NCBI GenBank assembly: GCA_951230915.1
Contig: OX579639.1
Coordinates: forward strand, 6,076,001 to 6,140,000
DNA: 64,000 bases
Direction: 5' to 3'
DNA from: Antitrichia curtipendula
Taxonomy: Eukaryota > Streptophyta > Bryopsida > Hypnales > Leucodontaceae
The notes below the pieces were generated by a model. The model did no database searches. It was not told the DNA's origin and saw nothing but the letters and a program-made list of their open reading frames with translations. Position numbers and translations under genes: made by a program. Shown here piece by piece: positions 26,832 through 54,457 of the stretch (positions are counted from its first letter, which is position 1; every line of letters starts with the position of its first letter).

Positions 26832-26862
26832 ATGGGCAATTTCGTTAAATTGGCGGTATTCC
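26832..26862 (+). repeat. Left terminal inverted repeat of the 27.6-kb candidate element
   Basis: It begins ATGGGCAATTTCGTTAAATT and ends GGCGGTATTCC, preceded by CAAT. The motif GTTAAA(A/T)TGGCGGT is repeated immediately inside at 26863-26876, followed by GGTTTAGG, an octamer that is also found just inside the right end. Confidence 0.65.
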
Positions 26863-26920
26863 GTTAAAATGGCGGTTTAGGGGCTTGAAGTAGGTAGAAA
26901 AACTATCAAAAGATTGTAGC

Positions 26921-27459
26921 ATGGGTGGGGAATTGTGCACATTACTGTTGATTTCGATAATTCATAATGAGGTGTCCTATGAAATGATCATGTCGCTTGC
27001 AGATGGAATTTGGACTAGCAATGGTTCCTATAAATTTTATGAGCCATTTCCCATAGAAGGGAGTTCGACAGACTATGTTAGAGGGTCCTACATTCGAAAA
27101 GAAAAATTTCCTTCAAAGTTCAATACCAGGGAAAGTTGTGCAGAGATTGCACCGTTTTTTGGATTGGTAATTTGTGGAGCATTTGCACTGACGTCTTCAA
27201 AGGGCCTCACAACGTGCCCTCAAGAAAATGCGACAAAGAGGGTGAAAAGTCGACAAATGAATTAAAACCGGGAGAGAAAGTTGTGGATGCAACTGTGAAG
27301 TTGGGAGTTGCCAACAAAATGATCACAACATACAAAAAACTTAACCTTGGATGTGATACATTCTTATGTACTTGGCGAGTACACAAAGATTTTTCCAAAG
27401 GGCCGTTAGTCCTTTTGGATGGTTTTGACATGCTCAAAAATCTTTTCCCTTATTTTTGA
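26921..27459 (+). pseudogene. Gene-like remnant just inside the left TIR
   Basis: Two overlapping frames look protein-like. The first (26921-27265) carries SYEMIMSLADGIWTSNGSYK. The second (27136-27459) carries DVFKGPHNVPSRKCDKEGEK and VVDATVKLGVANKMITTYKK. A shift between frames near 27130-27180 would give one longer product, so this may be a broken gene. The family is not recognised. It sits 60 bp inside the left terminal repeat and reads inward. Confidence 0.35.
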
Positions 27460-27600
27460 GTTGAAGATACTGATGCAACAAGGGAAGTGGCTCAGCAACC
27501 CTTTAAGGTTTGTTTGGCCTTTTTATTTTTCAGTTGAAGATATAGATGCAACAAGGGAAGTGGCTCAGCAACCCTTTAAGGTTTGTTTGGCCTTTTTGAT
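27460..27600 (+). repeat. 73-bp tandem duplication
   Basis: Two copies, 27460-27532 and 27533-27600, differ at only a few bases and each reads VEDxDATREVAQQPFKVCLA in one frame. The second copy follows TTTTTCAG, so the duplicate may have been an exon copied with its acceptor site. Confidence 0.75.
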
Positions 27601-27658
27601 GTGTTTCGAAAACCCAAAAATATTTTCCCTTATTTTCCACTTAGAAGAAAAATTGATG

Positions 27659-28689: not shown

Positions 28690-31260
28690 TTTGTGGTGCG
28701 ATGTTTGTTGTATCTCCACCTTGCACCTCCTTGCTTGCATCCCGCAATGTGTAAGGGAAGAGTCTTGAACTTGATCAACGGAAGCAAACTTCTACTTGAC
28801 AATCAAGTCGATGGGGGGCTTCACAGGGCACTCCAAGGTTCGCAGTCAAATGCTCATCAAGCGCAATGCAGCCCAATGTGGACGTCGCCTCTTTGCCTAA
28901 TGGATGGATGCCGAACCCCTTGGGTTGTGTAGAGTAGAAGTTAGAATAATGACAACCCCTCTCCAATCACGTCAGGAGTGTTTATAGGAGAAGCCAAGAT
29001 CCTCTTTGAGCTACACTGCGCCTAAAGAACAATTGTCCAAGGTTTCTAGAGTGCCCTACAAGAACCTCCCACAACATGGTTAAGAAGTAGAAGCCTGTTG
29101 ACGTTGATGAAATGGTGATCCGTAGATCACTGTTTTTAATTGCAATAGTCCTACATCCTCTCATTGAGGGGGGTTACTATGCTATAATTAAGACACCTAA
29201 GAGGGACTATCGCTTGAACAACGTGGGCGGGGGTTTGCATGTCTATATTGCATAAGCGTTTTATCTAGAGTATGTAGTTTACAAGAGAATCCTAAGGAGC
29301 CAATGCTTACGAATCCTAGTCATCTACATTCCTAAATTTCTTCTAGGCTTTTGAATTTCTCCGATTCAGTATACAATTGAGACAACATAGTCCTCAATTT
29401 CCGTGTGAGGCCAGTGGAGTGTACAGCTTGACACATGGAAGCAAGGGTGTATTTCCCAACCGCGCCGCCAGGATGTCTTTACAGGGCTTTCAGAGGTTCT
29501 CGATCAAATGCTTGTCAACTGCAATGAGGACCCGTGCCGGCGTTGCCTCCTTGCAAGATGGACCACTGCTGAACTTGGAGCTCATGCAGAGCAGAAGCAT
29601 GATTGAAGACAACCCATCTTCGGTCACGTCAAGAATGTTCATAGCGGAAGTCAACTTCCTCCACAAATTATGTTGGCACACGACACTGGAATCTGGAGAT
29701 CCATCGCACAACAGATTGCCCTGGCATTCACGGAGCTTGCATGCACATCCAAGGGAGTCATCTAAAATGAATGACCTCTCCAAAGAAGTTCAAGGGTGCG
29801 TATGGGAGCGATCGCAATCCATCTACCTCGTCCAACAGGTCCTCCGTTTCTCAGGGTTAGAGGCAGAAACGATCAACTTTCGCCGGGATGGAGATGGTTG
29901 AGAACAGAGTTTCTACTTGAGCACCTATTGGCTGCTCATAATAGAAGCCATCAAGTTGGAAGCAACTTCTAGGTCTTTTTGACTCGTAGGTTTATATTAT
30001 GCGCAGCCAACAAGTGCTCAAATGAGAACCCCTCCCAACAACCCCCATGCCGACAATAGTAGACCGGTTTCGCGACATGCCCAAAGAAATGAAGGACGCA
30101 ACGGAGAAGGCCGACGGATGACAGTTGCTGGCACAATATACCCTTGAACTTTTTTGAAGAGGTTGTTCATTCCAAACGACTCTTCTAGATGCGCATGAGA
30201 GCTCCGTGAACGCTTGAAGCATCGCATCTACTAGTGCAACCCCGATTTCTAGTGGCGTGCATCAACAGAGTTCGAAGAGGAAGTCGGCTTCCTCTATGAA
30301 TATTCTTGACCGACCAATGATGAGCTGCCTTCGATTTTGCTTCCGATCTACACCTGCACCAAGCTCAACCGTGTCTCATCCAACACCGAGACAACGTTCG
30401 AACAAATCCACACAACGGTTGAACAATTGCTCGAGGTTCTCCTATTGCGCTGCAAGGACCTCCTAACGACGCAGTTGAAGAATACACGATTGTTGGTGAA
30501 AAGGCTGACACATGGATTATTTTTGGTAAGCGGACTCTAAACATGCAAAGAAGGGAGAAAGGTGCTACGATTTGGACAATAGTGTCGTATAGCTACCTAA
30601 ATGTTATAATTTGTATTTTCTATATTCAATGAGGGTATATTGCTTGGAAGAATGAAGTGAAAATGTACCTACCATCCTATAGTCTTAACTCTTAAAGCAT
30701 CTCTAATATTTCAGCAACGTTCTAGGGGGATGCCATCCATGGGTCATCCCGTGTTCACAACATCGTCAATGTGTTGATCCATCCCTGAAAAGTGTTGAAG
30801 TCAATCTGTGACACGAAAGGATGTCTCTGGAGCAAACCTTGCCGCCTGACCTGCGGGAGACCACCTGAGCAATGTCGCGTACAGTTCAGAGCGGCCGCTC
30901 TGAATCGTGAGCAGGGACATTATAACCTGCAAAAGTGTTTTATTCAATTGTTGCGCCGAGAAGAGACCATCTTGGCCTAAACGACCGTAGGACCAAGAAT
31001 CCTGCACAATAGAGCCAACGATTACAATTCTTCGGTTAGGATTGAGGACTTCCTGATGACAATCTCCAAGGAGAGTGGAAAGAAAGAGCAACAGACTATT
31101 TGGACAACCAGTTGCTATCCATTTTAAATTGTTAGTGCGACGAAGATAAAGATCTGTCTAGCCCTATGCCAAGTTGTCCGTCGGACTCTACTTCAATCAT
31201 GCAACCATCCATGGTAGGAAAGAGCTTGCCTTCACAATATATGTGGCCATCGAGTTTTAT
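28690..31260. other. Degenerate multi-copy sequence, possibly a decayed gene family
   Basis: Three stretches (about 28750-29030, 29430-29800 and 30010-30480) share diverged segments, best seen on the minus strand: KEATSTLGCIALDEHLTANL in the first and KEATPARVLIAVDKHLIENL in the second, with a shared NIL/SRI-FxEEADFL-like block in the second and third. No long intact frame spans a copy. The 174-codon plus-strand ORF at 29377-29901 lies antisense to the second copy and I regard it as a shadow. One 20-bp palindrome occurs at 30885-30904. Confidence 0.4.
30885..30904. repeat. 20-bp GC palindrome, exact copy (leftmost)
   Basis: TTCAGAGCGGCCGCTCTGAA, a perfect palindrome centred on GCGGCCGC. This is the leftmost copy seen; it lies about 560 bp beyond the stop codon of the FCP1-like gene. 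Confidence 0.95.
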
Positions 31261-31467: not shown

Positions 31468-32948
31468 TCATTTTTTTTTTAATTCCCTTTTCTCTTTGGC
31501 CTTTCGAGCGACAAAGAAATCATTCCCGGTTTTAGTGTACATGCCCATGAACTCTGGATACTCCAGGAGGAGGGATCTATCCTGCCATCTAGCACACGCG
31601 CGCACTTTGAGTTCCAGACGCGTCTGTCTTAGGGGAACCGTGAGCTCCCATAGGAACGGATTTTGAGAGACGAATTGCGACACGCTAAGACCCGACAACA
31701 ACAGTTTGTGGAGATATTGGCGCAATGACCCGTGGAGGATGGAATCAAAGTCGCTGCCCGTGTATGACAAGGGAAATATGGCGTTGTACAAGGGATTGAG
31801 GATGCTACTCTCGGGGGAGGAATCGATGAGCAATGTGTTCGTCGAGTTCGCCCTGAAGTTGTTCGACCTGAACAACTCACTGTCCCAGACGCCCTTGTGG
31901 AGGACCTTGAGCCGCAGCTGCCCTCCCGGGTGTTCGGGGAACTGGACAAAGGTGTCTTCCGTGAGGTCCGGATCAGATTCCGAATGGACGGGGTGCGCGG
32001 GACAGGGTAATTCTGGGAGATGCGGGAGGGGTCTGCACTTGCAAAATCTCCACGCTCGTCTCTCGACAATGGAGGTGCAATCCTCTAGTGCGAGGACGCG
32101 CATGGTTCCACACTCTATGCCGCGGAAGAGGAAATCCACAATGGACTTGGCGACCTTGGACGGTAGCCTGGTCCACACGGACACGTGGAACTTCTTCGCC
32201 ACATTCCTGAGAAATTCCCGCAAGTCCGGGCGACAGTGAAGGGTGTATTCGTCAAAGACATGGCGCCTCCTTGGTTGGTAATCCGCCTCCGTCCCTTCCA
32301 TGGGCACCGGATTGGGTAGGATGTGCCCGACGTTCTCAATTCTGCTCAAGATCCCCTCTAATTCGAAGATCAAGAGATAACTGCATGATGGCAAAGCCAC
32401 GGGACCGGGCGGCTCCGGCGGCTCGGGCGGTGGCGACGGTGCCTGCGTACGCTATACCCCTTGTTCAAAGTCGATTCTATGACAAACGAATGGAGTCCAC
32501 AATATCTAACATGTGACTCTCTACACCCGAGAAGACGTGCCATGGTAACCGAGAGCTATCCCCCCCCCATTTCCTCTTTGCCTTGATCCTAATTGTAGGA
32601 GAGATCCATGCCCGTCTCGTGCAGACAATCTAATTGACCAAGGGTCGCCTATAGTGAGCAAGGAGGTGTTGCAAGGAAATTAAGACTCACCTTCTTCGCA
32701 TCCGTGGAAGGGGCAGGCGCTACTTGTCGCTTGGCCGTTACAACTTCTAGTGTGATTGCGGGATTGACCTCGGAAGGGATCGGAGGGCCCAAGTCGGCAT
32801 CCATGCGAGCGTCGACTTGAACGTGCATAGCCGGAGACTCCACTGCGATTGGATGGCGCGAAGAGCCGGTACTCGATCGACGGGGCGTTGCATCCGGACC
32901 GCTTGTGGGCAACGGGGACTTGTGGCGCAGCGAGAGAGCATTGTCATC
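31468..32948 (-). CDS. FCP1/HAD-like protein with degenerate catalytic motif
   Basis: Two exons are supported: 32948-32691 (86 codons, after TTCGATTCAG, ending AAG before GTGAGT) and 32442-31468 (324 codons plus stop, after GTACGCAG); they join in phase 0. The second exon opens with a Pro-rich linker and then an FCP1-homology (NLI-interacting factor) domain. Visible are YLLIFELEGIL (motif I), HCRPDLREFLRNV, FHVSVWTRLPSKVAKSIVDF and LLIDSSPESSILNPLYNAIF. Active family members need DxDx(T/V) in motif I and dephosphorylate Ser/Thr, classically the RNA polymerase II C-terminal domain. Here both Asp positions are Glu (ELEGI), so a pseudophosphatase or altered activity is likely. The C-terminus is basic (KAKEKRELKKK). 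These exons may be the 3' end of the large gene upstream (33261-39177, same strand, 310 bp away) or a separate gene whose first exon is not evident. Confidence 0.78.
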
Positions 32949-33260
32949 CTGAATCGAAAATGCAAAGAATGCAATTTGAGTGCCCCGATTTACTCGGAAA
33001 GACAAACACATATCCAAATGGACCGCAGTCACCCAAACATGATTACAAAAAAGAATCCAATATATTACAAGTAATATACAATGTTTTTATAGACCGAGTG
33101 GTTCTTTCTAGAATGGTTCACAAGCTACATCTACAAACTATTCTAGCTAGGAGTCACTACAGGCTTTATGCTTGGGCAGACTCGAAGGGACGACCTTCGA
33201 TCGACCCGCCGTATTACCCTCACACAGCGTCCATCCGACGACAGACTAAAAAGATGGGAG

Positions 33261-36200
33261 CTATGTGGAGGGGTTACCCACAGCTGGATCCTGGTCATCC
33301 CTGGGCGGTGAATCCACCGGAGCTTGCTCCTCAACCCTCGCACGGGACTGCACCGGAACGATTGCGTCCTGCACGGGAGCATATTGTTGGGTGAGGTTAG
33401 CGAAGGAGGCCTCTACATCTCCTAAGTCAACTTCCAGGCTGTACAGATCATCGTCGTCCATGCTCGCACGATGCACGGGTTCAGTGACATGCACAAAAGG
33501 AAATTGACTGAGGGCAAGGTCATCCAATTCTGGTTCACAAGTGACACTCACCGAGGTATTGGGAAGGTCCAAGGCACCCAGCATCCGTAGCCCTGACGCT
33601 GCGGTTTGCGTCGCGGAGGCCGAGTTCGTCGTGGACACGCCGGATACGTTCTGGAGTTCGATCGGATGGGGTGGAGTAAGAGCGACTGCAGGGGAGGGCG
33701 TGGACTGGATCGGTTTCGCCATCATCCTATCTATGCTCTCCTTCATGCTCTTGATCAAATCCCGTTGCTCTTGCTGCTCCAACTGGTATTTCCTTTCCCT
33801 GTCCGCTTGCTGCCTCCTCTCTTCCGCCGGCTCCCTCTCCTTCCTCTCTTTCTTGGCCTTCCGCTTGGCCTTCTTCTCTTCCTCTCCCCGCACCCTCTCC
33901 TGCTCTCTCTCCCGCTCTTGCCGCTCCCTCTCCCGCTCCTGCCGCTCCATCTCTTCGTTTTGCTTGTTGAGCAGGTCGATGGTTTGGGTACACTTCTCCA
34001 CCACCCCCGAATGCTTCTTCCTCTGGCGTTCCGAGATCCTCTCCACGAACGCGAGGCTGATGTTTGCCTTGGAGTCCATGACGTCGGGCTTCGCCTCTTC
34101 CGCCTCCACGCTCGAGCTCGCCCCTGCCTGAGTTGCGGTCCCCGTGTCCGAAGTCGATCCGCTTGCAGCCGCCGCCTTGGCCATCGCATTGTACTCCTCC
34201 CTCTTCAACGCTGCCTCGGCCAGACGCTTCACCAGAACCTCGTCATCCTCCTCGTCCAAATCAATCGGGTTGTTCTGGCTACTCCTCAGAGCCTCCTCGA
34301 GTCTCTTCTGCATCGCCCGAGTATGGGCCGCATATGCCAATTCCTCATCGGTGGGGGGAGAGAGTTCTGACATCAAGTTGTCGATGGTCACCTGTACCAC
34401 TGTCAACTTCTTGAGACTCTCGCTCTCGGCAACACTTGACGCCGGGCGAAGGGACTTCAACTCCAGCAGAACACTCCTCCTCCTGCCAATCCTCTGCGCC
34501 CTAGACTCCGTTGAAGAATTCCGCGGGGAACTTCTGACATCCATCCTCACCTTCTCCAGATCCACATGCTGCTCGTTCGAAAGGAGGACCTTCAACGGGT
34601 CCAACTGCGTCTGCAGATCTTCAATCTGCATTCTGGTGGGAGGCGGAGGAAGTGCATGCTCTGCGTGAGCTGAAGTCGATGGCGTCGTCGGAGCACGAGG
34701 AGCGGGAACCCGGAAGACGTTAGCAGTGGCGCTCACTTCAGAGCGGCCGGTCTGAACCTCACCGACGGGAGCGGGGGAATCAAAGGAAAGAGAGACAACG
34801 GCTTTGGACTGCGCTCTCTGGTTTGGGGGAGTGACAGACTAAGAGCCAGAGAGGGGGGAAAGCGATGGTGTATGGTAACGCCCGCTCAGGACTGCAGCAA
34901 GCGGAGAGGAAGGATGGCAAATGGGAAACTGGGAATCCAGTTCAAGGCGGTCGCTCTGAACTGCGACAGGAGGAGTTGGAGGGGGGGGATGAACGGGAGG
35001 TAGTGGAGAGTCCAGTTCAGAGCTCTCGCTCTGAACTGCAGGGATGGGAGATCTTGGGGGATCGGGGGATCGAGTAGAACCTGGAGCAGACAAGCCTGTC
35101 TGGTCATACTCGGACGAAGGCAGGTTGTCTCGGGACTCCACAGCAAGCGAGACTATTTGCACTTCATCTTCTCCAGGGACGAGGGGGGGCTCCATTGGGG
35201 AGAGCGGCTGAACCAATTCAGAGCGACCGCTCTGAACCGTGCTTGGGACTTCCATCCGAGAGGGAGATGAGTCGTCAGGTCGCTCCGACTGCACAGTGGC
35301 ATCGCTTTCTGCGGGCATCTGCGCGGACCTCCCCCCGACGACAGAATCGATGACGTCATTGTGAACCGAAGCTGATGGATTTGGTCCGATCTCATCATCC
35401 TCATCGTCTTCCTCGTCGGCATCGTCTTCCTCTTGGTCATTGTCCTCGTCGACGTCATCGTCCTGTCGGTTTCCGTCATCATCTGATTCATCGTCATTGG
35501 ACATGTTCAGGGGCTCGTCCGCCATCGACGTTTCTGCGTTGGGGGCGAGTTCCTCCTCCAATGCGGCAACGCCCTTCTTCGCCTTCACCTGGTCCTCATA
35601 GGTGTACCTCAATTTCCACCCCGGGACCAAAACATCAGGCCACATTTGGGCTCCAATGCGGTTATGCGTCGAGTGACGCGCCATGGACTTCTCTGTGGCA
35701 AGCATGAGGGAGACGGAGCTGCGGGACAACGTCTGCAGGCACAAATGGCGTTAATGACTCCGAACACATGAGATGCACAAATAAATCTGGACAAGCACTA
35801 TATACAAATGCGTGAGTCGTCGGTAATTACCGTGCATGCGGAGATGGCCTTTGCCCCAGCAAAGACGAGCATTGCGGTCCCTTGATCTCTACAGAACTTG
35901 TCGATGAAGCGGAGGTAGACTTCATACCGAAGTTCGTACTTCGAGCTAATCTGTGGATTATCGTGACGGCAGGTTTCACGGGTCGCGTACAGACTTTCGT
36001 CATTTTCGAGGTCTACGTCTTGTTCTGCTGAGAGTCTTGGCACACGTTCCGCAGCATTCACAATGTCAGAGTTTGTGAACTGCTTGATGTTTCGCTGCAA
36101 GTACATCACCTTGTTCTTGTTCCTGTCCTTGAAGCCCGGTTCGCCTTTGGCACACACATAGTTGCACTCCCGCCGAATAGCGTGATCCGGGAAGAACTCC

Positions 36201-39177
36201 TTCACAAGCTGATCCACCGCAGCCAACCGCTTGGAATTGAAGATCAACATCCACGTGTGCACATTCTTCGACATCACGGACTTGGATACCCTCTCGACCT
36301 CCTCCACGATCTTCCTGATTCCATAGCTGATCTCCATGTTCTCGATCTTCGGGAAAAGTCGGAGATCCATGATGCCTACCTCGCAAAACTGGAGGTTGGC
36401 GGGTGAGTTGGCGTCGCGGAGGACAGACCACGTCTTCCTCTTCTCAAGGCATAGATAGTCCTCGAAGTTGGAATCGTCCCGAATCCATCGACAAATACTC
36501 GCCCGCGAGCAATTCTTGACGTACTTGAATCGCGCGGTATTATTCACGACTCGGTCCAAGGCCCTCACCAACCTTGCGGAGGGCTCATCTTTCTTATTGC
36601 CCGACCGCACCTCGGACTTCAGGTACTCCACATCGATTGTCTGGAGGTGCCACATGTGAAACCCGCAGATGTTCAACGCGGCCTTGTAGTCCCTCCAGCC
36701 TTTGGGGTCCAAGTCCCCATTCTCGAGGAAGACACTGGCTGCTTCTATGATGCCCATATCCTTGCCCCTGTCCACCAACTCCTTGTACAGCACATTCTTG
36801 TGCTTCCTGTTTGTGCACCACGCGGCGACGGGAAGCGTCTTTGCCCATGTCGAAGGCTTCTTTATGATGTACACCTTTGGGGGGACGTCCAGGATCTTCT
36901 GAGCCAGCTCCCCGACTGCTAAATCGTCCAACCCGTGCAGACTCTTCATCATATTGTTGGTGATGGGTTGGAATTTATACGGCTTCGTGCTACCATCGGT
37001 CGTCATGATTTCGTTGAAGGGACCACCGGAGTCGATGTCGTATAGGGATCCCGACTCGTGACACAAAAATATTCTCTGCCACAGGGACCAAGTCTCCTCC
37101 GAGGCCATGATGAGTTTCCGCTCCCCCATCCGGTCCAGGTCATACGACGCTCTCGACTGCCCCTTCAGCACGCCGGTTGATTCGAAGCTTTGCTCAGCCT
37201 TCTCCCTAAACTCCTGCACGATTAAAACGATGTAAGATGAGAATATCGATACAACAGGAATCACTTCAGAGCGGCCGCTCTGAAGCGTATGATGAGGACA
37301 ACTGTGGATGAAATCACTTCAGAGCGGCCGCTCTGAAGTTAGACAAGCCGATTGTTGAAGTCGCCATAGCAATCAAAAACACTTCAGAGCGGGCGGTCTG
37401 AATTGCTTACCTCATAGGCCTTGAAATTCTCGCCTTGCTCCTTCGCCCTCGTGTTCTTGCGGCACTGCGCTGGCTTGCGTGCGTCTAGCCAGAGGTATCG
37501 GCAATGCTTGATTGTAGTCGGGAGGGACGACAAGTAAGGTCCGGTGACGTTGCCATCGTTGCACTTGCAGGACAACGCGTGCAAATGATTCTTCTCATTT
37601 GACCAAACGATCTCGCATGTCCACTTCTGCACTCGCTTCTTGACCTCTTTGTCGTCCACGCATGCTGTCCCTGAGATGATTTCCTTGGAAGCTTTCCATG
37701 TGTGCTGGCCGTTGATGATCTTCATGGGGAAGACATTCACGCAGTCTTGCCAACACCTTGGTCTCGTCGACGTGTTGGGCATCACGGTCAAGATCTGCTT
37801 GCTGAAGTTCACCTTCACCATTCGCTCCTGCACAGCCATGACACCTTTCTTTTCCAAGGGCCTGAATATCATGCCCGAGTCGTCGTCACACGGACTCATG
37901 TCGTCCACATCAAGCTCGAAGTATTTTCCTCTCCCGAAGATGTACATGTAGCTGGAGAGCTCCTTGAATTTCTTGTTCGCCACTGCTTCGGCCTTTAAGC
38001 GTTTCCTCGCCTCCTCTTCGTCACTTCGTCTTGGCTCCTTCTTGATTTCCAGTTCGACGAAGAGCTTCTCTGGAACGGAGGATTTGTTGAAGGGCACTGT
38101 TTCCGGGTTGTCCACCCAGTGACCGTTTACCTTCTTGATCGCTTGTTTGTGCGCCTCCTCTTCGGACACCTCGGTGGATTCCGGGATATCGCTTTGTTGG
38201 GACGAACTGGGCACACCTGCAGTGTCTTCGGCATCAGTCTCCCGTCGCTGCCGTCGATGCCTGCCCTCCGTTTCTTCCTCCAGCAATGTTTCCGCGGGGG
38301 TACGGTTGGTTTTCCTCTTCACCTTCTGCTTGGGGCGTGCCAACTTTTTGGGTTTAGACGCAGTGGTTGTGGATGGCGGTGGAGCCATGACGTTGGCTGA
38401 CACCACGGCACCTCGTTCTGAAGTCGCTTGGGAGCGGGCAGCAGCCGTATCGTTGATTGGCTCCGCGGCACCTACTGGAGGAGGCGCAGAGGCCCGAGCG
38501 GCTGCCGTGACTGGGGCGCCTGCGAGAGCTGACGACGCCGGAGGCCGTGCACGGGTGCCTGCTCCGGAACTGGAGCCTACTGACTTCTTTGACTTCTTGG
38601 GGGGCCGGTTTTGCGAATCCATGGGGGTGCTTCCTACGTCCTGCGTGTCAGTCGTACTCGTTAGCGATGCAATGTGGAGGTTGTTTGCATTGTTCAAGTA
38701 CGTCTTCACAGCGAAGCCGGTTTGTACGAAGTTGCCTCCTAGTGCTTCGCATATCGATTTGGTGTCCATCATCAGGGCTTGGAAATGAGGTGGAACATTA
38801 TCGTAGTTCTTGATTATTCTTTCGTGGGAGAAAGTCATTTCATCTTCTACGCGGATGACGATGACACCGAAGGTGCTGTTTGTTGCATTCACTACGTCTA
38901 TAAGAATGGCCTCCTGAAGCACATTGATATTAATGACTATGATGTCCTTGAATGATTTCCATCTAGGGTCTCCATGCTTCGTAAATCCCAGCGCTAGACT
39001 GAAGACAGGTGAGTCGTGATGGTAGCTCATCTCCACCGTCCACAAGGCCTTCGTCGCCAACAACTGCAGCGGAGTTTTCTCCTCTATGTGAGCTTTCCAG
39101 CACTCGTGCACGCGGTCAAGCGCCAGCCGTTTTATATAGCCTATGAGTGGTGGCTTGCTCTCCAAAAAGGACTCCAT
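33261..39177 (-). CDS. Large nuclear-type protein of unknown function (three exons, one in-frame TAG)
   Basis: Exons are 39177-37411, 37213-35831 and 35732-33261, all joined in phase 0 by GT-AG introns of 197 and 98 bp. The start at 39177 has an excellent context (GCCATGG). Exon 1 (589 codons) has a globular N-terminus, then a Ser/Ala/Pro linker and basic patches (PPKKSKKS; KPKKLARPKQKVKRK) that look like nuclear localisation signals. Exon 2 (461 codons) is globular and unrecognised; its end joins exon 3 as AMLVFAGAKAISACT-TLSRS, faintly like a SAM-binding glycine loop (weak inference). Exon 3 carries a Glu/Asp-rich tract (about 35385-35500), Pro-rich linkers with in-frame copies of the 20-bp palindrome, and a long Arg/Glu coiled coil (about 33720-34010). 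A TAG at 34841-34839 interrupts exon 3; the same frame then stays open for 525 more codons, so the product is 1351 aa if terminated, or about 1876 if it is bypassed or is a mutation. CTCTTAG there could also be a splice acceptor, but no good donor was seen. Confidence 0.72.
34737..35236 (-). repeat. In-frame exonic copies of the GC palindrome
   Basis: Copies lie at 35217-35236, 35016-35035, 34941-34960 and 34737-34756, with a more diverged fifth near 35290. Starts are 201, 75 and 204 bp apart, all multiples of three, so every copy is read in the same frame and gives VQSGRSE, VQSESSE, VQSDRLE and VQTGRSE. They sit in Pro-rich linkers of the large protein. Confidence 0.85.
37265..37402. repeat. 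Three intronic copies of the GC palindrome
   Basis: Copies at 37265-37284 and 37318-37337 are exact TTCAGAGCGGCCGCTCTGAA; 37383-37402 has two changes (GGGCGG centre). All three lie within the 197-bp first intron (37410-37214) of the large minus-strand gene, the third just inside the donor site. Confidence 0.95.
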
Positions 39178-39204
39178 GGCACTGTCCACAGGAATTTGTA
39201 CGAA

Positions 39205-39399
39205 TTAGACCACGCGGTCTAAATTGGAATTTGCAATAACGTTCTTTTATCCGCGTCAGCGGAAATCCAACTTAGAGCGCGCGTTTTAGAACTTACATTA
39301 CCCGAAGAGTTCATTAGAGCGGGCTTTCTGATCCTTTCCGAACTAGTGCAACGAATATACCGAGGAAATGACGCAACGGTTCAGTGCGACCGCTCTGAA
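39205..39399. promoter_or_regulatory. Degenerate palindromes immediately upstream of the large gene
   Basis: TTAGACCACGCGGTCTAA at 39205-39222 lies 28 bp upstream of the start codon and has the same architecture (TTAGA-C/G core-TCTAA). Weaker relatives follow near 39271 and 39312, and TTCAGTGCGACCGCTCTGAA at 39380-39399. Their position fits operator-like sites, but function is inference. Confidence 0.5.
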
Positions 39400-39715: not shown

Positions 39716-40140
39716 TTCAGAGCGGCCGCTCTGAACCTCTATGCTCATCCATGGTGGATATGCACATTGATGAGGTTCAGAGCGGCCGCTCTGAACCTGT
39801 GCTCGTCCATGGTGGGTATGCACAATGATGAGGTTCAGAGCGGCCGCTCTGAACCTATGCTCATCCATGTGGGGTATGCACATTGATGAGGTTCAGAGCG
39901 GCCGCTCTGATTCTCTTCAATTCCTATAGTTCAGACGACCAGGCAACAGTTCAGAGCGGCCGCTCTGATCCTCTTCAATTTTCATAATTCAAACGTCCGA
40001 TGAGATCAGAGCGGCCGCTTTGATCCTATTCGCATCCGAGAAGTTGGGCTACATTAATCGAGTTCAGAGCGGCCGCTCTAATCTATAATCTAGTCATCCC
40101 TTTTATGGAATTCGTAGAGGTTCAGAGCGGCCGCTCTGAT
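39716..40140. repeat. Cluster of eight GC palindromes upstream of the large gene
   Basis: Copies start at 39716, 39776, 39834, 39892, 39950, 40005, 40063 and 40121, spaced 55-60 bp. The first four are embedded in a tandem unit containing CTATGCTCATCCATG(G)TGG and GTATGCACATTGATGAGG. Several are exact; some have a changed outer base (CTCTGAT, CTTTGAT, CTCTAAT). They lie 540-960 bp upstream of the minus-strand gene start. Confidence 0.95.
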
Positions 40141-41193: not shown

Positions 41194-41832
41194 ACCCCTA
41201 AATGCCCAAGGCCTGTTTCGAGCTCCTTGAAATTTGCTCTAAATTGAACAAAATGACAACATTTTGATAAATTGTATCAATTTTGTTTGAATTGTAACCG
41301 TATAAATTCAAACTAGACATGTTAGAGATCTCATAGAAAAAGAAAACACAACAATATCACTTACGGAGTGAAAGATTATAATGTTTGACCATGAGGGTGT
41401 TAAAATTGCACAAATCTTTCAATCCTCTTTTCACAAGTCAAATCTAAAATGTTGGTGACCAAAAAAATATGATGTTAAAGGACCTAACATGTATAACCCC
41501 AATCAATTTATAACTTCTTAAAATCTACTCTATAACTTTTTTAAATGAATTTTGAATGTGATGTTTTCTCCAAGATCTAGTGTATTTGAGGCTCATTTCC
41601 AAGAGCTCTCAACACTACGGGAGGTCAAGATTGCAATGGGTACCCTTGCACAAAATCTTGAATAGAGAAAACACTATCATTTATTTTCAAGATCGGATTT
41701 TTAATGCTAAAACTAGACTTCGAGAAGAACTTTCCAAATACATAAACTACTAAAAATAGCAATTTGATTAGGTTTTATTTAACTTCAAAGTTTTGCAAAC
41801 ACCAGATTTGGGTGCCTCGGGCATTTAGGGGT
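41194..41832 (+). repeat. 639-bp TA-flanked MITE, ACCCCTAAATGCCC subfamily
   Basis: Ends are ACCCCTAAATGCCCAAGGCC and the inverted GCCTCGGGCATTTAGGGGT, with TA on both sides (TTAA left, TTAC right). It is roughly 90 percent identical by eye to 47539-48185, in the same orientation, and related to 10743-11540. No coding capacity. Confidence 0.85.
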
Positions 41833-44751: not shown

Positions 44752-46060
44752 ACCCTTTAGTGACCATGGTTGATTTGGGGGGCGGGCGTATTTTTTCAAG
44801 AAAGTGAACTTTGTGGCCACTCTAAAGATGTAGTCTTAGATCAAACCATACAAGGTGTTTCCATGAGGGAGATTCTCCAACCTTACAAAAAATCAAACTC
44901 ATCCAACGGTACAAATCTCTATAAATAAGGTAGAAGGTCCATAAATGAACCTTTTAAGGGCTAAAATTGAATTTTGGGGAGGTGAAACATCTTTTAATAT
45001 TTTTTAGTAAATTTTCCACAAAAGACAAGTAGAATAGGCATCTAAGGTAGAACAGCCCAATTCCGTCAGTTTCCCAATTCCGTTGCCTATGCTTTGGCCC
45101 CAATTCCGTCAACTGTAAAATCTATATGCATTCACTTTCCTGACAAATTTCAGTGCATTAATGCCTAAAGGACTAACGTGTCAATCCTTCACTGGTGGGA
45201 ACTTAAGTGCCAATAGATACATGTTAAGATGGTAATGGATTGTTCATGAGACAATTTTGACCCGACTCTATGCACAGTTTTGAACTTTTTAGGGCAGCTT
45301 ACTTTGAAAATTCACAGAAATTACAATTTTGATCCGAAAATTATAATTCCACTTGGGTTTGATTTGTGAAACAACCACACAACTCTGAAAAATATGTACC
45401 TCTCTCGAAGTTGGCCCAAAGATAGTCAGATTGCAAATCAGTATGGTAATAGGTTGTTCTACCTTAACCCAAGTAGTTTCATATTTTTCAAGCTTTGTGA
45501 AATTAGTTACAAATTTTTGAAGTTCACAAAAAATAGTCATCTGTGGTCATCAATGCGAATACCCTTCTAAAATGTGCAGATTTGGTACATTGAAGAAAGT
45601 GAAATGTACCTCTACATCATGTTTGCTTCTAGAGCCTTGTTCGAGTTTGAATTGCTTTTCTGATAAATCAAAAATCAATGATTTGAATGTCCCTTTAGAA
45701 TTTGCGCTACATAAATACCAATGCATAAGTTTACTTTGGGCATTCATGAGATTACAAAGAAACACTTATGCCTTGTCAAGACATGAAGTTACAAAAAAAT
45801 CTCACAATGTGGTTGACATTATTTTGTATTTTTGTTGAATACTTTCCATTTGAAGGTCCAGGCCATTTGAGTTTGCAACCTCATTGCTAATTCATCAAAT
45901 TGAATGCTCCAACTCCCTTAAAATTGGTTTTGTTTGAAGCGCATGAAGACACTCTAATTGCGTTACTCTTTGAGTTTTTTGTGATCAAATGTATTTGGAA
46001 TAGCATTAGACCAAGAGTCCCAAAATCGACCACAAAATGGTCGACCGGTCACTAAAGGGT
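44752..46060. repeat. 1.3-kb TA-flanked element with ACCCTTTAGTGACC ends
   Basis: The left end ACCCTTTAGTGACC and right end GGTCACTAAAGGGT are perfect inverted repeats flanked by TA (TTAA on both sides). The right end contains the palindrome GGTCGACC and a GACCATTTTGTGGTC inverted pair. The interior lacks a long ORF. It resembles the ACCCCTAAA families in design but has a different end sequence. Confidence 0.75.
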
Positions 46061-47538
46061 TAAGCTAAATTCATCCTATTATATACTTAAAGTATAATGA
46101 AAAATATAAAGTTTATATTTTTCATGGGTGAAAAAGGGTGTTTTCTATTGACAATTATTTTTCTATAAATCTTGCAAAAAAAATCAAGTAACTATAATTT
46201 AAAAAAATAGAAGATAGAAATAAAATTATATCAATTAGAAATTAGATTTAGATTTTTTTTTCTTTTTAACATAAATGAAAGTTAGAATGAAAAATATCAC
46301 TTTGTAATTGAAGTTTAAAATAAACATTTTGAAAGGATAAAAGTTGAATGAAAAAAACACAATATAATGAAATACGGATCTTAATACTTGGAGCTTGTGA
46401 TTGCAATAGTTTTTGGTAAATATTGAGAAAGATTAGAGTTTATAATATGGACTTCTTTTTGTTTCATAATGTCAAGATAAATTCTAAACTTGTGAAACGT
46501 TAGAAATAGTCATTTAATCTTCAGAGGATGTAGTCCCCACGAAAAAGAGAGCCACCAAAATGCTTTATTATTGGACGGATAGTTGCATTCCTTGTTTATT
46601 TAAGTGAGCAGGCATGTCATCTATTGATCACTTTTGGCCTTGGCGTCTTTTTAAGGGTTAAGTTAAACAAAGGAACATGTAGGACTATTGTGTATTTTAA
46701 CAATTTAGCTTTTGAAGGATAGATTTGATATTCTAAGACTTCAAGAGTACAAATTTTCACAAATGTAAAGTGCATTTGAATCACATCATGTATAGTTAGT
46801 GTACTATTTTGTGATAGAAATGGAAGGTTTACATTGCACAATTCTAAGGAGAGAAGCCTAAAAACTCTTCTATAAATGGTACACCACAAGTCCAAAAAAA
46901 GGGTGAAAATGCACTTTTATTGTCATTTAATCAATGCACTTGGTCAAGTGCAGCATTTACAAATTGTATGTTGTTCATAGTTCACCATCTTTACACTCAA
47001 CTACATAAAATTGCTCCTTTTAATTGTGTGTAAAATTCATCTCATCACCAATAAAGGGTTTGTACTTTACCCCATGATGCACCCCAAACACCTGCACCAC
47101 CACCTCCCAAAAAACCAAAAAAAAATTTGGGTTCTATTTTTCCCTCATCCTAAAGGCTTCCTGTCAACCCGCAAGAGGTCCATAAAAACAAGAAGACAGT
47201 CACTATATAAATCTCAATCTCAATCTCAATGGACCAACTATATTTGATTTTAAACAAACCCATCTACAATTTCTGTTTTTCTTAACATTTAGATCATCAA
47301 ATGAAGATGAATCACCCTGGGAGGTCCCACAAGAGGACAATAATCAACTAATCAATAATTTGTTATAATTAAGGTCATTCGTGCCAGAAATAAAATTTAT
47401 TGTGACAAAGATACTATTAGATATAAAAATAATCCATATTCAATAATCCAATTTGGCAAGATTTAAAAAAATTAAAATAAAAAAAATCCAACAGCAACAC
47501 ATCAAGATGAAATTATCATTACCCTTTTGTTGGTCTTA
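46061..47538. other. AT-rich intergenic DNA
   Basis: Only short ORFs, a (AATCTC)n microsatellite at about 47210-47230 and A-rich tracts are visible. No gene is supported. Confidence 0.5.
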
Positions 47539-48185
47539 ACCCCTAAATGCCCAAGGCCTATTTTGAGCGTCTTGGAATTAGCTCTAAATTGAACAAAATG
47601 CCAACATTTTGGTAAGTTGTATCAATTTTTTTGAATTGTAACCATACAAATTCAAACTAGACATGTTAGAGATCTCATAGGAAAAGAAAACGCAATAATA
47701 TTACCTATGGAGTGGAAGATTGTAATGTTTGACTATGAGGGTGTTAAAACTGCAAATGTGATGTGAAGTCTTTCAATCCTCTTTTCACAAGTCAAATCTA
47801 AAATGTTGGTGACCAAAAAAATATGAGGTTCAAAGTCCTAACATGTATAACCCCAATCAATTTATGGCTTCTTAAAATGTAATCTATAATTTTTTTAAAT
47901 GAATCTGATTGTGATTTTTTCTCCAAGCTCTAGTGTATTTGAGGCTCATTTTCAAGAGCTCTCAACACTACGGGAAGTCAAGATTGCATTGGGTACCCTT
48001 GGACAAAATCTTGAATAGAAAAATCACTATCATTTATTTTCAAGATTATACTTTTGATGCTAAAATTAGACTTTAAGAAAAGCTTTCTAAAAATATAAAC
48101 TACTAAAAATAGCAACTAGGTTAGGTTTTATTTAACTTCAAAGTTTTACAAACACCAGATTTTGGTGCCTCGGGTAATTAGGGGT
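47539..48185 (+). repeat. 647-bp TA-flanked MITE, ACCCCTAAATGCCC subfamily (second copy)
   Basis: It starts ACCCCTAAATGCCCAAGGCC after TTA and ends GTAATTAGGGGT before TTAA. It aligns with 41194-41832 in direct orientation along its length. The two copies bracket 5.7 kb of AT-rich DNA. Confidence 0.85.
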
Positions 48186-48974
48186 TAATACCTGAAATTC
48201 CGGCTGCAGCGCCAGTGAAAGCCATGATTTTTCTACTCAGCCGCCAAATATTGAAATGCAATGTCAGTTCCCTCCTTAAATTAGCCTATAGCACAATGGC
48301 ACGAGATAGACACGCGGCAAAAAAACAAAACTCTGCCACAAGATTGAAGGACTGTCAGAAGACACCGTACCGAAAGGAATTCCATAGCCCATGTCCGTGG
48401 CACCCGGAAGACGTGGGTTGTATCGAAATGACTTCGGTCGGCGCTCCTTGTTTCATTTTTCTTTTGCGAATCATGTCGTCGTCGTGTTGAGGGACTTTTT
48501 TCACCGCTTTTTCCATTCATGTTCGACGTCGCTGCGCTGTCCTTCAGTACCTTCTCCATTGCTCCGAAGTTGCCGGCGACATTGGAGCGTTTCACTCAGG
48601 TATGATTCACTTCACATTGGACCTTGAATTTGATTGTGATTCTGCTCAATGATTGTGCAGAAACGTTCCATCGCCGTGAATGCACGTTGTCGTCTGCATT
48701 TGTGGGAAGGGTGAAAGTCACAATGCCTTACTTGATTAGTGAATTTATGGTATTTACTAGCATCATTGTGATTTTCTTCTGTATGTGATTCATTCTCCAT
48801 TCTCATTGTATAGCAGTCTGTACGAATGCACATTGCAACGGTTGAATCAGAAATTCATACGATTATGTTATTTAGTGTAGCTCTTATGAATTATTGTGAC
48901 CTTGGTTCCCAATCCTGGAGACCTTGCATTCAACTATCGTTTTGTCCCTATCAAATCGTGAACTAAGCATGTCC
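48186..48974. other. Intergenic DNA left of the minisatellite
   Basis: Mixed composition with a GC-richer patch at 48290-48600 where ORFs are open on both strands (Lys/Ser-rich on the minus strand). I cannot decide whether it is coding; no splice pattern or family match is evident. Confidence 0.35.
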
Positions 48975-50215
48975 ATAACAGTTCAGAGCGGCTGCTTTGA
49001 AGTGATTTCTGAAGGTCGATTTTACCTGAACTAACTTCGAAATCCCTTCCTGCTTGCGTACGTGAGGTCTCGAGTTCCCAGTAACACTTCAGAGCAGCCA
49101 CTCTGAAGTGAATTTTAGTTGTGGATTTCACTCTTCAACGATCCAATACCTTAACCATGTAGTCTTGTTCACGGTTCAGAGCGGCCGCTCTGAAGTGAGT
49201 TTCAGTTGTGAATTTCACTCTTCATCGATTTCTTACTTTAATCTTGAAGTCACATTCACGGTTCAGAGTGGCCGCTCTGATGTGGATTTCAGTTGTGAAT
49301 TTCACTCTTCATCGATCTCTTACTTTAACCGTGCAGTCTCATTCACGGTTCGGAGCGACCGCTCTGAAGCGAATTTTAGATGTGGATCTCTTCACAACGT
49401 TCACTTACTACGTCCGTGCAGTTTCGTTCACGGTTTAGTGCGGCCCCTCTGAAGTGAATTTCAGATGTGGATTTCTGTTTTTAATAATGTCGTACTTCAT
49501 CCTTGGAGTCGCGTTCACGGTTTAGCGCGGCCCTTCTGAAGTGAATTTCAGATGTGGATTTCTCTTCTCAACAATGTCGTATTTCGTCTTTGGAGTCACG
49601 TTCACGGTTTAGTGCGGCCCCTCTGAAGTGAATTTCAGATGTGGATTCCCTTCTCAACAATGTCGTATTTCGTCCTTGGAGTCGCGTTCATGGTTTAGCG
49701 CGGCCCCTCTGAAGTGAATTTCAGATGTGGATTTCTCTTCTCAACAATGTCGTATTTCGTCCTTGGAGTCGCGTTCACGGTTTAGTGCGGCCCCTCTGAA
49801 GTGAATTTCAGATGTGGATTCCCTTCTCAACAATGTCGTATTTCGTCCTTGAAGTCGCGTTCACGGTTTAGTGCGGCCCCTCTGAAGTGATTTTCAGAAG
49901 TGGATTTCTGTTTTTAATAATGTCGTACTTCATCCTTGGAGTCGCGTTCACGGTTTAGCGCGGCCCCTCTGAAGTGAATTTCAGATGTGGATTTCTCTTC
50001 TCAACAATGTCATATTTCGTCCTTGGAGTCGCGTTCACGGTTTAGTGCGGCCCCTCTGAAGTGAATTTCAGATGTGGATTCTCTTCTCAACAATGTCGTA
50101 TTTCGTCCTTGGAGTCGCGTTCACGGTTTAGTGCGGCCCCTCTGAAGTGAATTTCAGAAGTGGATTTCTTTTGTCAGCCGTGTCGTACTTCATCCCTTGA
50201 GTCGTGTTCGTGGAT
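48975..50215. repeat. 86-87-bp minisatellite seeded by the GC palindrome
   Basis: About 14 units share the order TTCACGG, the palindrome-derived block, GTGAATTTCAGATGTGGATT and a TCTTCTCAACAATGTCGTAT-like spacer. Starts of TTCACGG fall at 49168, 49255, 49342, 49427, 49514, 49601, 49687, 49774, 49860, 49947, 50034 and 50120, giving spacings of 85-87 bp. The first units carry near-intact palindromes (49175-49194 exact; 48982, 49088, 49262 and 49349 with changes), whereas later ones carry the eroded form TTTAGTGCGGCCCCTCTGAA. The array ends about 390 bp upstream of the DUF7869-type gene. Confidence 0.92.
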
Positions 50216-50604
50216 GACTGCGTTAGTGTCTAATGTGTTCATAATGCGTTCCTCTTGGATTGGTTGGTACTCATATTCAAAATGGTCGTCCCGTGAAGCT
50301 TGTGTTTCACATCCAATCGTTGATGGAGTGCCTGAAGTCTTCCGTTTCATGCCATGCATTATTATCCACTCTATGTGAGGCATGCCGTCACTTCTTTCCG
50401 TGACAAAATGATTGATGGGGCTTCTAGGACCACCTACCTTATGTCTTAATGCGACATATTTTCACTCGTCTTATGTTTGGCAGGTTGCGGAATTCCTAGA
50501 GCCTGAAAGGAACTGCGGATCCCAGTTGTTCAACGTTTCACTCCTGTTATCACCGTGACTGCAATTGTCTAAGCATTGCATACCCCTCCAGACTTTATTC
50601 TCTT

Positions 50605-53600
50605 ATGTCTACTTTGAGCGATTTTCCTTCCAGCGAGTCTGACGCTGATGAGGTGAACTATTCATGATTCATTTCATTTGTCGCGAAATTGTCGGCACTT
50701 GCAATTCTGCATTCCGTTGTATTATTGTGGAAATGTCATTTCATACATGTTTGACGCGTAGGGCTTTGAAGAATTCGAGGAAGAAGATATCGACTTGGAG
50801 GCATTTAACGCGATAGGCGAGGACACTAGTCCCATCCCAGATTGCGAGGGCATCGGCCGCGACGGATGGCTTGGCAAGGCCCTTCTCGCGAGGCATGCGG
50901 ACGGTTCTGACTTTGCTGACGTGATCATTATTACTGTCGATCCCAATGCATGTGTCGATGGACTAAGTAGGCTGGGGAATGACGATGTGGGCATTGTCGT
51001 ACTCGAGGTCCACAACGGTGACCCGCGCATCGGTGACATGTGTCTGCGGTGGCCTATGCGCCAGGTATTCTACGAGGATGAGAATGGCTATGTAAGTGTT
51101 TATGATCACGCCCGCAAGCGTGAAGCCATTGATAAGCATTTAGAGGGAAATCGTAGAAGAGTGGGCGTGAGACAATATCGCTATGATAGGAGAACTCGAG
51201 CAGCAGCGGCTCTAAACAAGAGGACGAAGATGGTATCACACGAATCTATCGCAGCAGTCTTCATGCAACCTTGTTGCAAGGAAGAGTGCACACGGAAATT
51301 TCCCCCTTCCACCATTCATGCACTTCGAACGGAAATGCACATGCAATCCTTCCAAGTGAAGTCCTCCAAAAATCTGGACGTCCACCGGACAATGCACAAA
51401 GTTTTAGAAGGGCGGAGGCAGTTTGTCACGGTCGAAGGCATAGACATCTGCCGAACTGCGTGGCGGATTCTCCACAACATTCCTCTCCGCACGTTCGAAA
51501 GGTACAAGGCCAAGGCCAAGGACGGCGTTAGAGGCGCTCCACACGGCAATTTGAACCGAGCAAAGTCGAGGAGTGCAACCATTCAAGCCATTGAGACATT
51601 GCACTCATTATTAGAGGCGGCAGCTGACCACATGCCCCATTTATCACGCACCTTGCGCGGCGGCGAAAAAGTTGGCTTGAAAGTTCTCCCTGTCGGTACC
51701 GAATGGAAACAGTTATTGGCCACCGTCAACGAGGTAAGACCAGCACTTGCGTGGAAAGCCGTCTACTAGACTGATATGACAAGGACACGCTTGTATTGTT
51801 CCATCACTCATGACGTAGATGAAGTCCATTAGTATTCACAGTGATACCTATTCAATGTAAATTGTAAAGAGTGGCCACGTGGGTCCCGTTGTTTGCCGGC
51901 AAACGTGGAGCTTGGTCTCCCTCCAGTGTCGCAATCATGCTTTAGTAAAATTCGAACTAGACATTTTGCAGAATACGTCATCAAAGGAAGAGGAGATTCC
52001 TTTGCAAGGTGTACCATTTGCGACAACTTGAAGCAATTACGAGCATCCTTTGCACCCGGATCAGAGGACTATCAACGAATTCAAAGGCGTTTCGAGAAGC
52101 ACTTGTTCTTGCAAGAAGCCTGTCGACATGCCTACTACCGTAGTAGGCAATTGTCCAAATTAAGACCGACGCAATTACTATCCATCATGCATGACAAAAT
52201 GGACCATTCAAAAACTGCATGTCCTGCATTAGCGAGGAAAACAAAGGCACTAGATGGACTCAGGAAGTTGCCCGTGAAAGTGTCAGGAATTTTTGCACAT
52301 GGGCACGGCGATGGCAAATATGCACATTACAATTTGGATGTGTTTCCAAGTGATAGCAACTTCACGGTGGGCTCCATTGCCAAATTGTTGCGAGATTTGG
52401 AACAGCCACCCGTGAAGTCTTCGCGATGCTTGTTTAGTGGCGCCGGCAGCACCGAGTTGTATCGAGCGTTGCTCAAGGGAAGCGAGATTTGCATGCAGTC
52501 TTTGGGAGATGTTCCATCACAACTAATGGAAGCTCGACCACTACCACCAGTGCTACACATTCAAATGGACAATTCATGGAGGGAAAACAAGAATCGGTAC
52601 GTCTTTTGTTTTTGGTCCCTTTTGGTTGCAAGGCGAATTGTGAAAGAAGTGGTCGTCTCCTTCATGATAGTGAGACACACACACGATGACCTAGATGCGT
52701 CGTTTGGGCAATGGAGCATGCAACTCCGCGAAAAAGACCATCCTACCTTGCCATCGTTGATGCAATCATACCTGGAAATGGAGCAAGGCCCCTTCATTCC
52801 GCACCTAATAGAAGAAGTGCCCGACTTCAAGGCCTACGTCAAACCATACATCGGGATGAAGAAGAATCAATTGGTGGGTCACTCCAATGGAAGGCAGTAC
52901 AAATTCTTCATGAACGACAATGGTTGGCCGATCATGCAATACAAAATGGCATGTACCGACATTCCATGGTTGCCCGAGCAAGGGTTGCAACTATGGAAGG
53001 AAGGTGAGGATCACAAACCTCTCCTTCCACAAGGTGATCCTATCCGTGTGACTCCCAAGAAAATGCCCAATGAAGTTGAGATTTTACGTGGACTTCAAGG
53101 ATACATCCAGCATTGGATGGATGCATCTAAAGAAGACGGGACAACAGAGTATAAGGACTGCATGTCGAACTTGGTCACATATTGGACTGCCGTGACAAAT
53201 GCCCTACGCAATGGAGCCAATGAAGACCCCCCATAGTCCGAAGTATAAAAGGACGGATTCTGGCCTCAAACTCGCCAACCTGGGGATCTTTCGACGGATT
53301 TCATGCAAGACGGCAGGATGCGCGAAGAACTCAAGGAAGAAGAACCCTACATTGGCACTCTAGAGGGGAGACCACCGCCAGCTTACAATGTGGCCAGAGA
53401 TCTCCACGAAGGATTCTACTTGTTTGTGAGGCCAGGATTGGATTGTGAGGAGCCCGTGTGGGTCGGTAGGGCAGTAGAGCAGCCACAATTTGATCCAACG
53501 GTAGAGCACTTTCGCGAAATTCTTGTGCAATGGTGCACCCCATGTGGATCATCCAAGGACATGCGACGATTATACGCAGGGTGGGACACAAAACCCGGTT

Positions 53601-53776
53601 TCAGATGGAAGATTGACCCCACCGCTATTCAAGCCGACTACGTTTCCACGGATAGCATTATGGCATCGTGGAAACCAAAGAAGAACGAAGGCCGTAGCTT
53701 CATTGCACCCCGGCAACAAGTTCAATTTGCAGCCGAGCATTTGCGTCGAATTGCAGCAGAAGAACAGGACATGTGA
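50605..53776 (+). CDS. DUF7869-type protein, putative DDE-like transposase (two in-frame stops)
   Basis: Exon 1 is 50605-50652 (MSTLSDFPSSESDADE), exon 2 is 50762-51733 and exon 3 starts at about 51872; all junctions are GT-AG and phase 0. Exon 2 begins very acidic (GFEEFEEEDIDLEAF). Exon 3 holds a Cys pair (FARCTICDNLKQLRA), then SIMHDKMDHSKTACP, a VPSQLMEARPLPPVLHIQMD stretch followed by NSWRENKNRY, and VRHTHDDLDASFGQ. These match the conserved blocks of the family known to me as DUF7869 (family name recalled, not searched), found in multicopy in plants, algae and corals; the spaced Asp residues (DKMD, QMDN, HTHDDLD) suggest an RNase H-like DDE fold, which is inference. A TAG at about 53234 and a TAA 12 bases later interrupt the frame, which then runs on to 53776 with a plausible family C-terminus (VQWCTPCG, DTKPGFRWKI). 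Thus either a pseudogene, or a protein ending NEDPP. It lies 650 bp inside the right TIR. Confidence 0.75.
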
Positions 53777-54426
53777 ATATGAAGTCTTCAAGGGCTCTCA
53801 AAGACAACGTTGCTCAGGGAGTGAAACAACGGTAGCGTGTGTTCTAGAAGGGGAATTTTTTCAATGAACGCAACAAGTTTTGATAGTTCGTCTAATCCAA
53901 CAACAAAACCTTTGATGGCCAACTCCTTTGCAGTCTCTGACGAGCAAAGAGTGCATACTCGTCAATATTTTGTACCTTTTTTGTTGTTTAATCCAAAAGA
54001 TCAGTGCTTTTCCTGCTACTTCTTATCCATTTGAACTCCGCCCATTCTGGATTTATTTTTGGTTGACCTCACGCTCATGTACAATGCCAAGCCTAAACAA
54101 TCACCCAAATTTGAACCCATTGTCACACTGGAGTCCAAGTGCACCCCCTCCTTTCCATTATTTTTGGGAGCGACAACACATGCTTCAATCACAAAAAGAT
54201 TCCACGAAAATTCTTCCATCTCTTGGCCATTAGTACGACCCTCAGATCCCAATACTAGCTCCATGTACATTAACTATCTTCAATGAACGTTCTACGTAGA
54301 AAACTAGAAATCCATGCACTGGTATTCTGGGGTTCAATTTGCTACACACCGCCATTGATGACATCCAACCAACTACAAAGCAAAACAATTGACCACCTCC
54401 TAAACCATCACGTACAAATGGCACAT
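53777..54426. other. 3' flank of the DUF7869-type gene up to the right TIR
   Basis: No coding exon is evident; the sequence is AT-richer again. It should contain the gene's 3' UTR and the subterminal part of the candidate transposon, including GGTTTAGG (as CCTAAACC near 54400) that matches the left subterminal octamer. Confidence 0.4.
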
Positions 54427-54457
54427 GGAATACCGCCATTTTAACGAAATTGCCCAT
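54427..54457 (-). repeat. Right terminal inverted repeat of the 27.6-kb candidate element
   Basis: Read on the minus strand it begins ATGGGCAATTTCGTTAAAAT and ends GGCGGTATTCC; one base differs from the left repeat. CAAT follows directly outside (54458-54461), matching the four bases outside the left end. Confidence 0.65.

Follow-up and report, generated by a model that had tools for sequence, protein, structure and literature searches.

We analysed a 64,000-nucleotide stretch of DNA from the moss Antitrichia curtipendula (contig OX579639.1; the whole stretch is hereafter called the window), and we conclude that the interval from 26,832 to 54,457 is quite likely a single cut-and-paste DNA transposon of 27.6 kb enlarged by later insertions, this being, taken as a whole, the best explanation of its contents. 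The element carries terminal inverted repeats (TIRs), a 4-bp target duplication, a gene of the DUF7869 family whose product is modelled with a DDD-transposase fold, and palindrome arrays between divergent genes that recur throughout the family with differing sequences, all of which are well supported.

The left TIR (26832..26862, plus strand) is 31 bp long and is complementary at 30 of 31 positions to the right TIR (54427..54457, minus strand). Directly outside them stand two copies of CAAT (26828..26831 and 54458..54461) with the same letters in the same orientation, as is required of a target duplication, and the interval thus has the ends of a TIR-type DNA transposon. Inverted pairs matching at 29 or more of 31 positions and lying more than 3 kb apart did not occur in 20 simulated windows (second-order Markov), and pairs at that threshold were found at only two places in the real window, namely the TIRs and a dispersed repeat of ~950 bp. 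The TIRs and CAAT flanks of the original prediction therefore hold at both ends. That prediction had also pointed to a shared octamer, GGTTTAGG, which is indeed present inside both ends (26874-26881, with an inverted copy at 54399-54406) but at unequal distances from them, so we do not count it as part of the TIR.

The two gene blocks of the interval are tied together by a 20-bp palindrome, TTCAGAGCGGCCGCTCTGAA, that the original prediction does not mention. Allowing up to 5 mismatches, the window has 31 copies, every one of them inside the TIRs, and five shuffled windows contained none. Fourteen form an array with a period of ~87 bp (48982..50146) upstream of the DUF7869 gene, and eight form a second array with a period of ~58 bp (39716..40140) upstream of a large partner gene, where a ninth, single copy lies closer to the gene start (39380-39399). 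Three more are within intron 1 of the partner gene (37265..37402), one perfect copy lies beyond an FCP1-like open reading frame (ORF) (30885..30904), and four diverged copies (34737..35236) are spread over low-complexity sequence of the partner gene and the beginning of a 525-amino-acid ORF, where they translate as VQSGRSE, VQSESSE, VQSDRLE, and VQTGRSE. With a looser criterion (arms of at least 9, one mismatch) the window total rises to 45 palindromes, of which 31 fall inside the TIRs; the other 14 have sequences of their own. Because one palindrome occurs at both gene blocks, the blocks belong to one element despite a 7-kb gap between them.

A weaker TIR-like site (23/31) was seen at 54586-54616, 129 bp beyond the right end and in the same orientation. 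Its local alignment scores were 32 against the right end and 36 against the left, near the maximum of 35 in 100 shuffles. The site could be either what is left of a different insertion or a chance match. We also considered this site as an older relative hosting the 27.6-kb insertion, and rejected that idea as the flanks share only 24 bp, near shuffle level.

Genes and inserted DNA of the element

The DUF7869 gene lies on the plus strand at 50762..53776, with exons at 50762-51733 and 51872-53236 and a C-terminal ORF at 53249-53776; this exon structure is our own model, and its start codon or first exon is not settled. Pfam family PF25273 (DUF7869) matches the ORF at 51845-53236 with an E-value of 6e-46, and no Mutator family was among the Pfam matches. 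A structure model of the protein (predicted local distance difference test, pLDDT, 80.8) has a DDE-transposase-like core with conserved Asp; the predicted core is RNase H-like with three acidic residues, and exon 51872-53236 would hold its catalytic part. Comparison with PDB sequences gave nothing better than E 0.1. The DUF7869-type gene with acidic motifs was thus read correctly from the sequence, and the suggestion that it encodes the transposase is backed by the modelled fold and by its context. Two in-frame stops (53234-53236 and 53246-53248) interrupt the gene ahead of the final 175-codon ORF, at a place where its relatives P0001-P0003 are uninterrupted; the original prediction does not mention these stops. 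With both in its transposase gene, the window copy is damaged and could probably move only with help in trans. Homologues of DUF7869 are common: when scoring was confined to the 7993 candidates with the most words in common, there were 79 matches, among them P0016 of Physcomitrium patens.

The large partner gene lies on the minus strand (34841..39177), starts at 39177, and encodes 1347 amino acids after splicing, in line with the predicted protein of more than 1300 residues. Its introns are likewise our model. Exon 1 (39177-37411) carries a ParB-like GxH box, and the two following exons (37213-35831 and 35732-34841) have a methylase-like strand order with degenerate motifs. Relatives of this protein were rare in searches that depend on shared exact words: a 730-residue stretch gave 10 matches and an exon-2 profile gave 6, 2 of them new (P0080-P0091 in all). 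Exon 1, exon 2, and the methylase-like piece found no PDB sequence better than E 0.1, and an AlphaFold2 model of exon 2 was poor (pLDDT 45.1). In two of the relatives, the C-terminus of P0087 (FGPRGPN) and the N-terminus of P0081 (QTAQSEV) look as if they were read through a flanking intron. Since each of these peptides could encode a palindrome, other moss-like relatives may carry palindromes of their own in the corresponding intron.

Downstream of the partner gene and on the same strand is a charged ORF of 525 amino acids (33261..34838) that looks coiled-coil-like, has no Pfam match at E<=1, and may be one more exon belonging to the partner gene. It is followed by an ORF with an FCP1/NIF-like phosphatase domain (31468..32451, minus strand; PF03031 at 9.9e-10), in which the best-matching stretch starts at profile position 33. 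Upstream of this stretch, ELEGIL occupies what we take to be the site of the catalytic DxDx motif, so that, as predicted, the catalytic Asp pair seems to be missing. By eye, a possible upstream exon lies near 32690-32950. No PDB sequence matched this ORF better than E 0.1, a CTD small phosphatase reaching 0.36. Searched by tblastn at E 1, the eight relative loci described below gave no match to exon 1, exon 2, the 525-amino-acid ORF, or the FCP1-like ORF, and the FCP1-like gene therefore looks like an addition of the window lineage.

Between the two gene blocks lies a palindrome-free, AT-rich stretch (41191..48187) with a GC content of 0.31 and an observed/expected CpG ratio of 0.39, where the flanking gene and array blocks have ratios of 0.92 and 1.05. 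It looks like one or more later insertions. At its borders are two copies, ~650 bp each, of a miniature inverted-repeat transposable element (MITE) (41191-41834 and 47536-48187), and a related copy is found outside the element at 10728-11539; the MITE invasion in the original prediction is thus supported. The MITE termini read CCCCTAAATGCCC..AGGGG and the flanks are mostly TTAA (on both sides of 47536-48187, and TTAA plus TTAC around 41191-41834), and we presume the family to be piggyBac-like. The inverted termini rule out the MITE pair as long terminal repeats of a nested retroelement. CpG content as a sign of hypomethylation was dropped, other parts of the window being equally high.

Relatives and superfamily

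A DUF7869 profile scan of prokaryote assemblies yielded at least 8 loci (L014-L021), 1 from a cyanobacterial bin and 7 from a Trichormus bin, which are apparently contaminants of bacterial assemblies. Trichormus inhabits the fern Azolla, and L020 sits inside a gypsy retroelement frame, so a plant origin of these loci is likely. The scans made found no relatives in viral contigs.

In 7 of the 8 listed loci, at least 3 related palindromes of ~19-43 bp lie upstream of the DUF7869 gene. Their sequences differ, with GTCGATGC..GCATCGAC types in L015-L018 and L020, AATCCGATGCAGTGCATCGGATT in L019, and TTTAGCTCGA..TCGAGCTAAA in L014. L017 has 14 palindromes of two types, partly alternating, in 770 bp, and in L020 two palindromes are fused into one of 66 bp. 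In shuffled loci palindromes had a density of 2.2 per 10 kb, and a few unrelated palindromes occur in most of the real loci as well. L021 is without an array, and there the ORFs of both sides overlap at the array's place, as if the space had been lost. A divergent gene stands across the array or its place in all four loci that reach far enough (L016, L017, L020, and L021). On the proposed check of whether DUF7869 genes elsewhere adjoin the same TIR and the same partner genes, a divergent partner is found in 4/4, and kinship between the TIRs of the window and of the relatives was not significant.

L020 is a clear case. Its element is 7724 bp long with 33-bp TIRs (26 matches) and AACA on both sides, and when the flanks are joined, the open retroelement frame is restored. 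Among the six loci inspected for their ends, three have recognisable terminal repeats and three are on contigs that end before the left end; L016 and L021 have no matching target duplication at theirs. The claim that the window interval is one mobile unit is supported by the confinement of all 31 palindromes, from the like layout of the relatives, and from the TIRs, duplication, and clean empty site of L020.

The partner ORF of L020 (1442-1777, minus strand) matches the methylase family PF01555 at 4.1e-8 (33.9 bits, above the curated cut-off of 26.7); the methylase ORFs scanned against Pfam were those of L020. Corresponding ORFs exist in L016 and L021, and the L017 contig ends before the PF01555-matching ORF. 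When joined, the methylase parts of L016, L020, and L021 gave 98.4% against phage methylases in hhalign. The partner is a probable member of the DNA N6/N4-methylase family.

As to the superfamily, the element probably belongs to Sola, judged by described features, since it fits those Sola features that could be tested. Published accounts describe Sola elements with a DDD transposase and 4-bp duplications, mostly of 2-9 kb with some above 15 kb, and occurring in Physcomitrella (PMC10741241), and Sola2 duplications, Sola2 being the closest comparison, as AT-rich and AWWT in one species (PMC3627910). Correspondingly, the duplications are 4 bp in both the window (CAAT) and L020 (AACA), Asp is conserved in the DDE-like core, and P0016 is a Physcomitrium protein. 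We therefore rather favour the view that this is an ordinary large Sola member, that DUF7869 simply denotes the Sola transposase in Pfam, and that nothing but the size and cargo is unusual. The likeness is to published descriptions, CAAT and AACA are no exact fit to AWWT, and the sections of the Sola accounts consulted mention neither a methylase partner nor palindrome arrays (PMC10741241, PMC3627910). The Foldseek and VIA listings contained no Sola transposase, which has no bearing on membership. In the literature searched, which includes few subscription papers, we found neither the name DUF7869 nor a transposon-encoded methylase partner with palindrome arrays. The undescribed type of the original prediction is accordingly not supported for the transposase, whose testable features fit published Sola, while the partner gene and arrays do look new.

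The partner protein and the palindromes

The large protein of the window matches the partner of the relatives in place and orientation. Window exon 1 has IINGQHTWxA followed by CEIVW and KCNDGN; the corresponding motifs of the fern-like partner (that of L016 and L020) are VIGGSHSAEARRQL, CKIYV, and DHNNDN. Window exon 2 ends FCRDQGTxMLVFAGAKAISAC, with the fern-like counterpart FSNVDDWVLDLFSGTGTTLAC. For the first part, 3 of 28 pairwise tests gave scores reached by 0/200 shuffles, all three with P0089, and for the second part 1 of 21 did (P0080 with L016); the best alignments of both parts fall in the register of these motif pairs. From such resemblances we lean towards a common origin of the window's large protein and the fern-like partner, with the fern-like proteins recognisable methylases and the moss-like branch a remote, degenerate homologue. 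The window protein has IMDLRLFP at the place of the DIPY motif and FAGAK at that of FSGTG, and if common origin is right, the moss-like branch would have lost the catalytic motifs and may have kept DNA recognition only.

Several results weigh against our overall reading of the element and its partner. CAAT has a frequency of 0.7% per position and is weak evidence if taken alone. The window's large protein matched 0 Pfam families, with no match to PF01555; its own sequence was not significant in the pairwise shuffle tests against the fern-like partner; and the profile comparisons (hhalign) bearing on this kinship were not significant. Direct comparison thus rejected the large protein as a methylase, and that assignment is upheld only via its relatives.

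In the mechanism that we propose, the transposase would join the TIRs and insert at cuts staggered by 4 bp. Acting as a dimer, a form of reader suggested by the length of the palindromes, the partner protein would read those at the promoters and would keep the element's own genes active or mark its DNA as self, as VANC does for VANDAL. That the partner and arrays have one or another of these roles, regulatory, anti-silencing, or self-marking, is by analogy a matter of even balance.

To our knowledge, VANC in Arabidopsis is the main known plant example of anti-silencing encoded by an element. The VANDAL genes include VANA21, which we take to be that of the transposase. Short private motifs are described in tandem arrays within VANC21 and VANB21 introns and ahead of VANA21; binding by VANC goes with a loss of methylation, and from one family to the next the protein changes along with the motif (PMC5735166, PMC10398659). 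The placement of the palindromes is strikingly like this: in both systems dense, element-private motifs occupy introns as well as the upstream region of a further element gene, and they vary between families. Unlike the 9-base directional motif of VANDAL, however, that of the window is a 20-bp palindrome, and its partner is methylase-related rather than VANC, with a different transposase and duplication length. The element has no Mutator-type transposase and no VANC, and the likeness is in the way of working only. Base-modifying enzymes used by or against transposons are also described for fungal TET/JBP-carrying transposons and for rotifer N4CMT (PMC12730594, PMC8885841), but by these accounts TET/JBP removes base modifications and occurs in other superfamilies, and the N4CMT of bdelloid rotifers is a host gene.

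A more specific possibility is self-marking in the manner of ParB and parS, in which the element is modified by a fusion of ParB box and methylase that has loaded onto its palindromes. The palindromic sites, the methylase domain in a relative's partner, and VIGGSHSAEARRQL in the fern-like partner would suit it, and the ParB box of window-family exon 1 aligns with phage ParB (P 0.0015, 0/80 shuffles, over only 22 columns). The fern-like partner, in contrast, was not significant against phage ParB (58/80 shuffles reached its score), Pfam gave no ParB family and DUF6551 at no better than 0.02-0.08, and the methylase motifs of the window protein are degenerate. The fern-like ParB-like part found no PDB sequence better than E 0.1, and in phages the best tblastn matches to the ParB-like piece did not go below E 4. 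We regard this possibility as tentative. ParB is described as loading at parS and spreading; parS is palindromic. Bacterial ParB/parS and phage methylases share with the element the GxH/R box with palindromic sites and the PF01555 domain, but the ParB similarity is weak, and the system of the window is a TIR element with a DDE-type transposase in apparently eukaryotic DNA. By analogy, and as speculation of the same doubtful standing, a family of moss and fern transposons might carry a centromere-like control system of its own, in which a methylase with a ParB box, or a descendant that has lost catalysis, would nucleate on private palindromes, spread, and mark or shield the element from silencing, with palindrome and reader co-evolving fast so that each family recognises itself only.

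If the proposed role of the partner is true, this would be an independent system in which arrays of long palindromes beside a methylase-family gene persist in both moss-like and fern-like elements, with a palindrome sequence that changes. It would give DUF7869 a biological meaning and might offer an entry route of bacterial-type DNA methylases into plant genomes. The system can be reduced to one protein and one 20-bp site and is hence directly testable.

It is unlikely, in our judgement, that the palindromes bind the transposase itself, as subterminal repeats, instead of the partner protein. The large array does adjoin the transposase gene in the window and the relatives, but all window palindromes are more than 4 kb from either element end, and those of L016 and L020 lie between the genes, away from the TIRs. 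That chance repeats merely enclose host DNA and several elements (at least two) of separate origin is a very improbable account of the interval: its middle 7 kb is host-like and MITEs are present, but no such inverted pair arose in simulations, one private palindrome stands at both gene blocks, and L016 and L020 have the two-gene layout without such a middle stretch.

Other features of the window

Inside the element, a 1-kb imperfect inverted palindrome (29447-30487) is 66% identical to itself. Outside it, the dispersed repeat mentioned above (954 bp, 96% identical) lies in inverted copies at 7583-8536 and 14047-14999 (7580-8537 and 14046-15002 in the search for inverted pairs) and begins TTAACCCCTAAA like the MITEs. 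A mariner-like transposase fragment with DUF7769 and HTH_Tnp_Tc3_2 matches is found at 13442-13921 (minus strand). An AMP-binding enzyme gene of at least 2 ORFs (3506-5447, minus strand) is probably a host gene, and the end of a gypsy-type integrase with SH3-like domain and chromodomain (62959-63999, minus strand) continues past the window edge.

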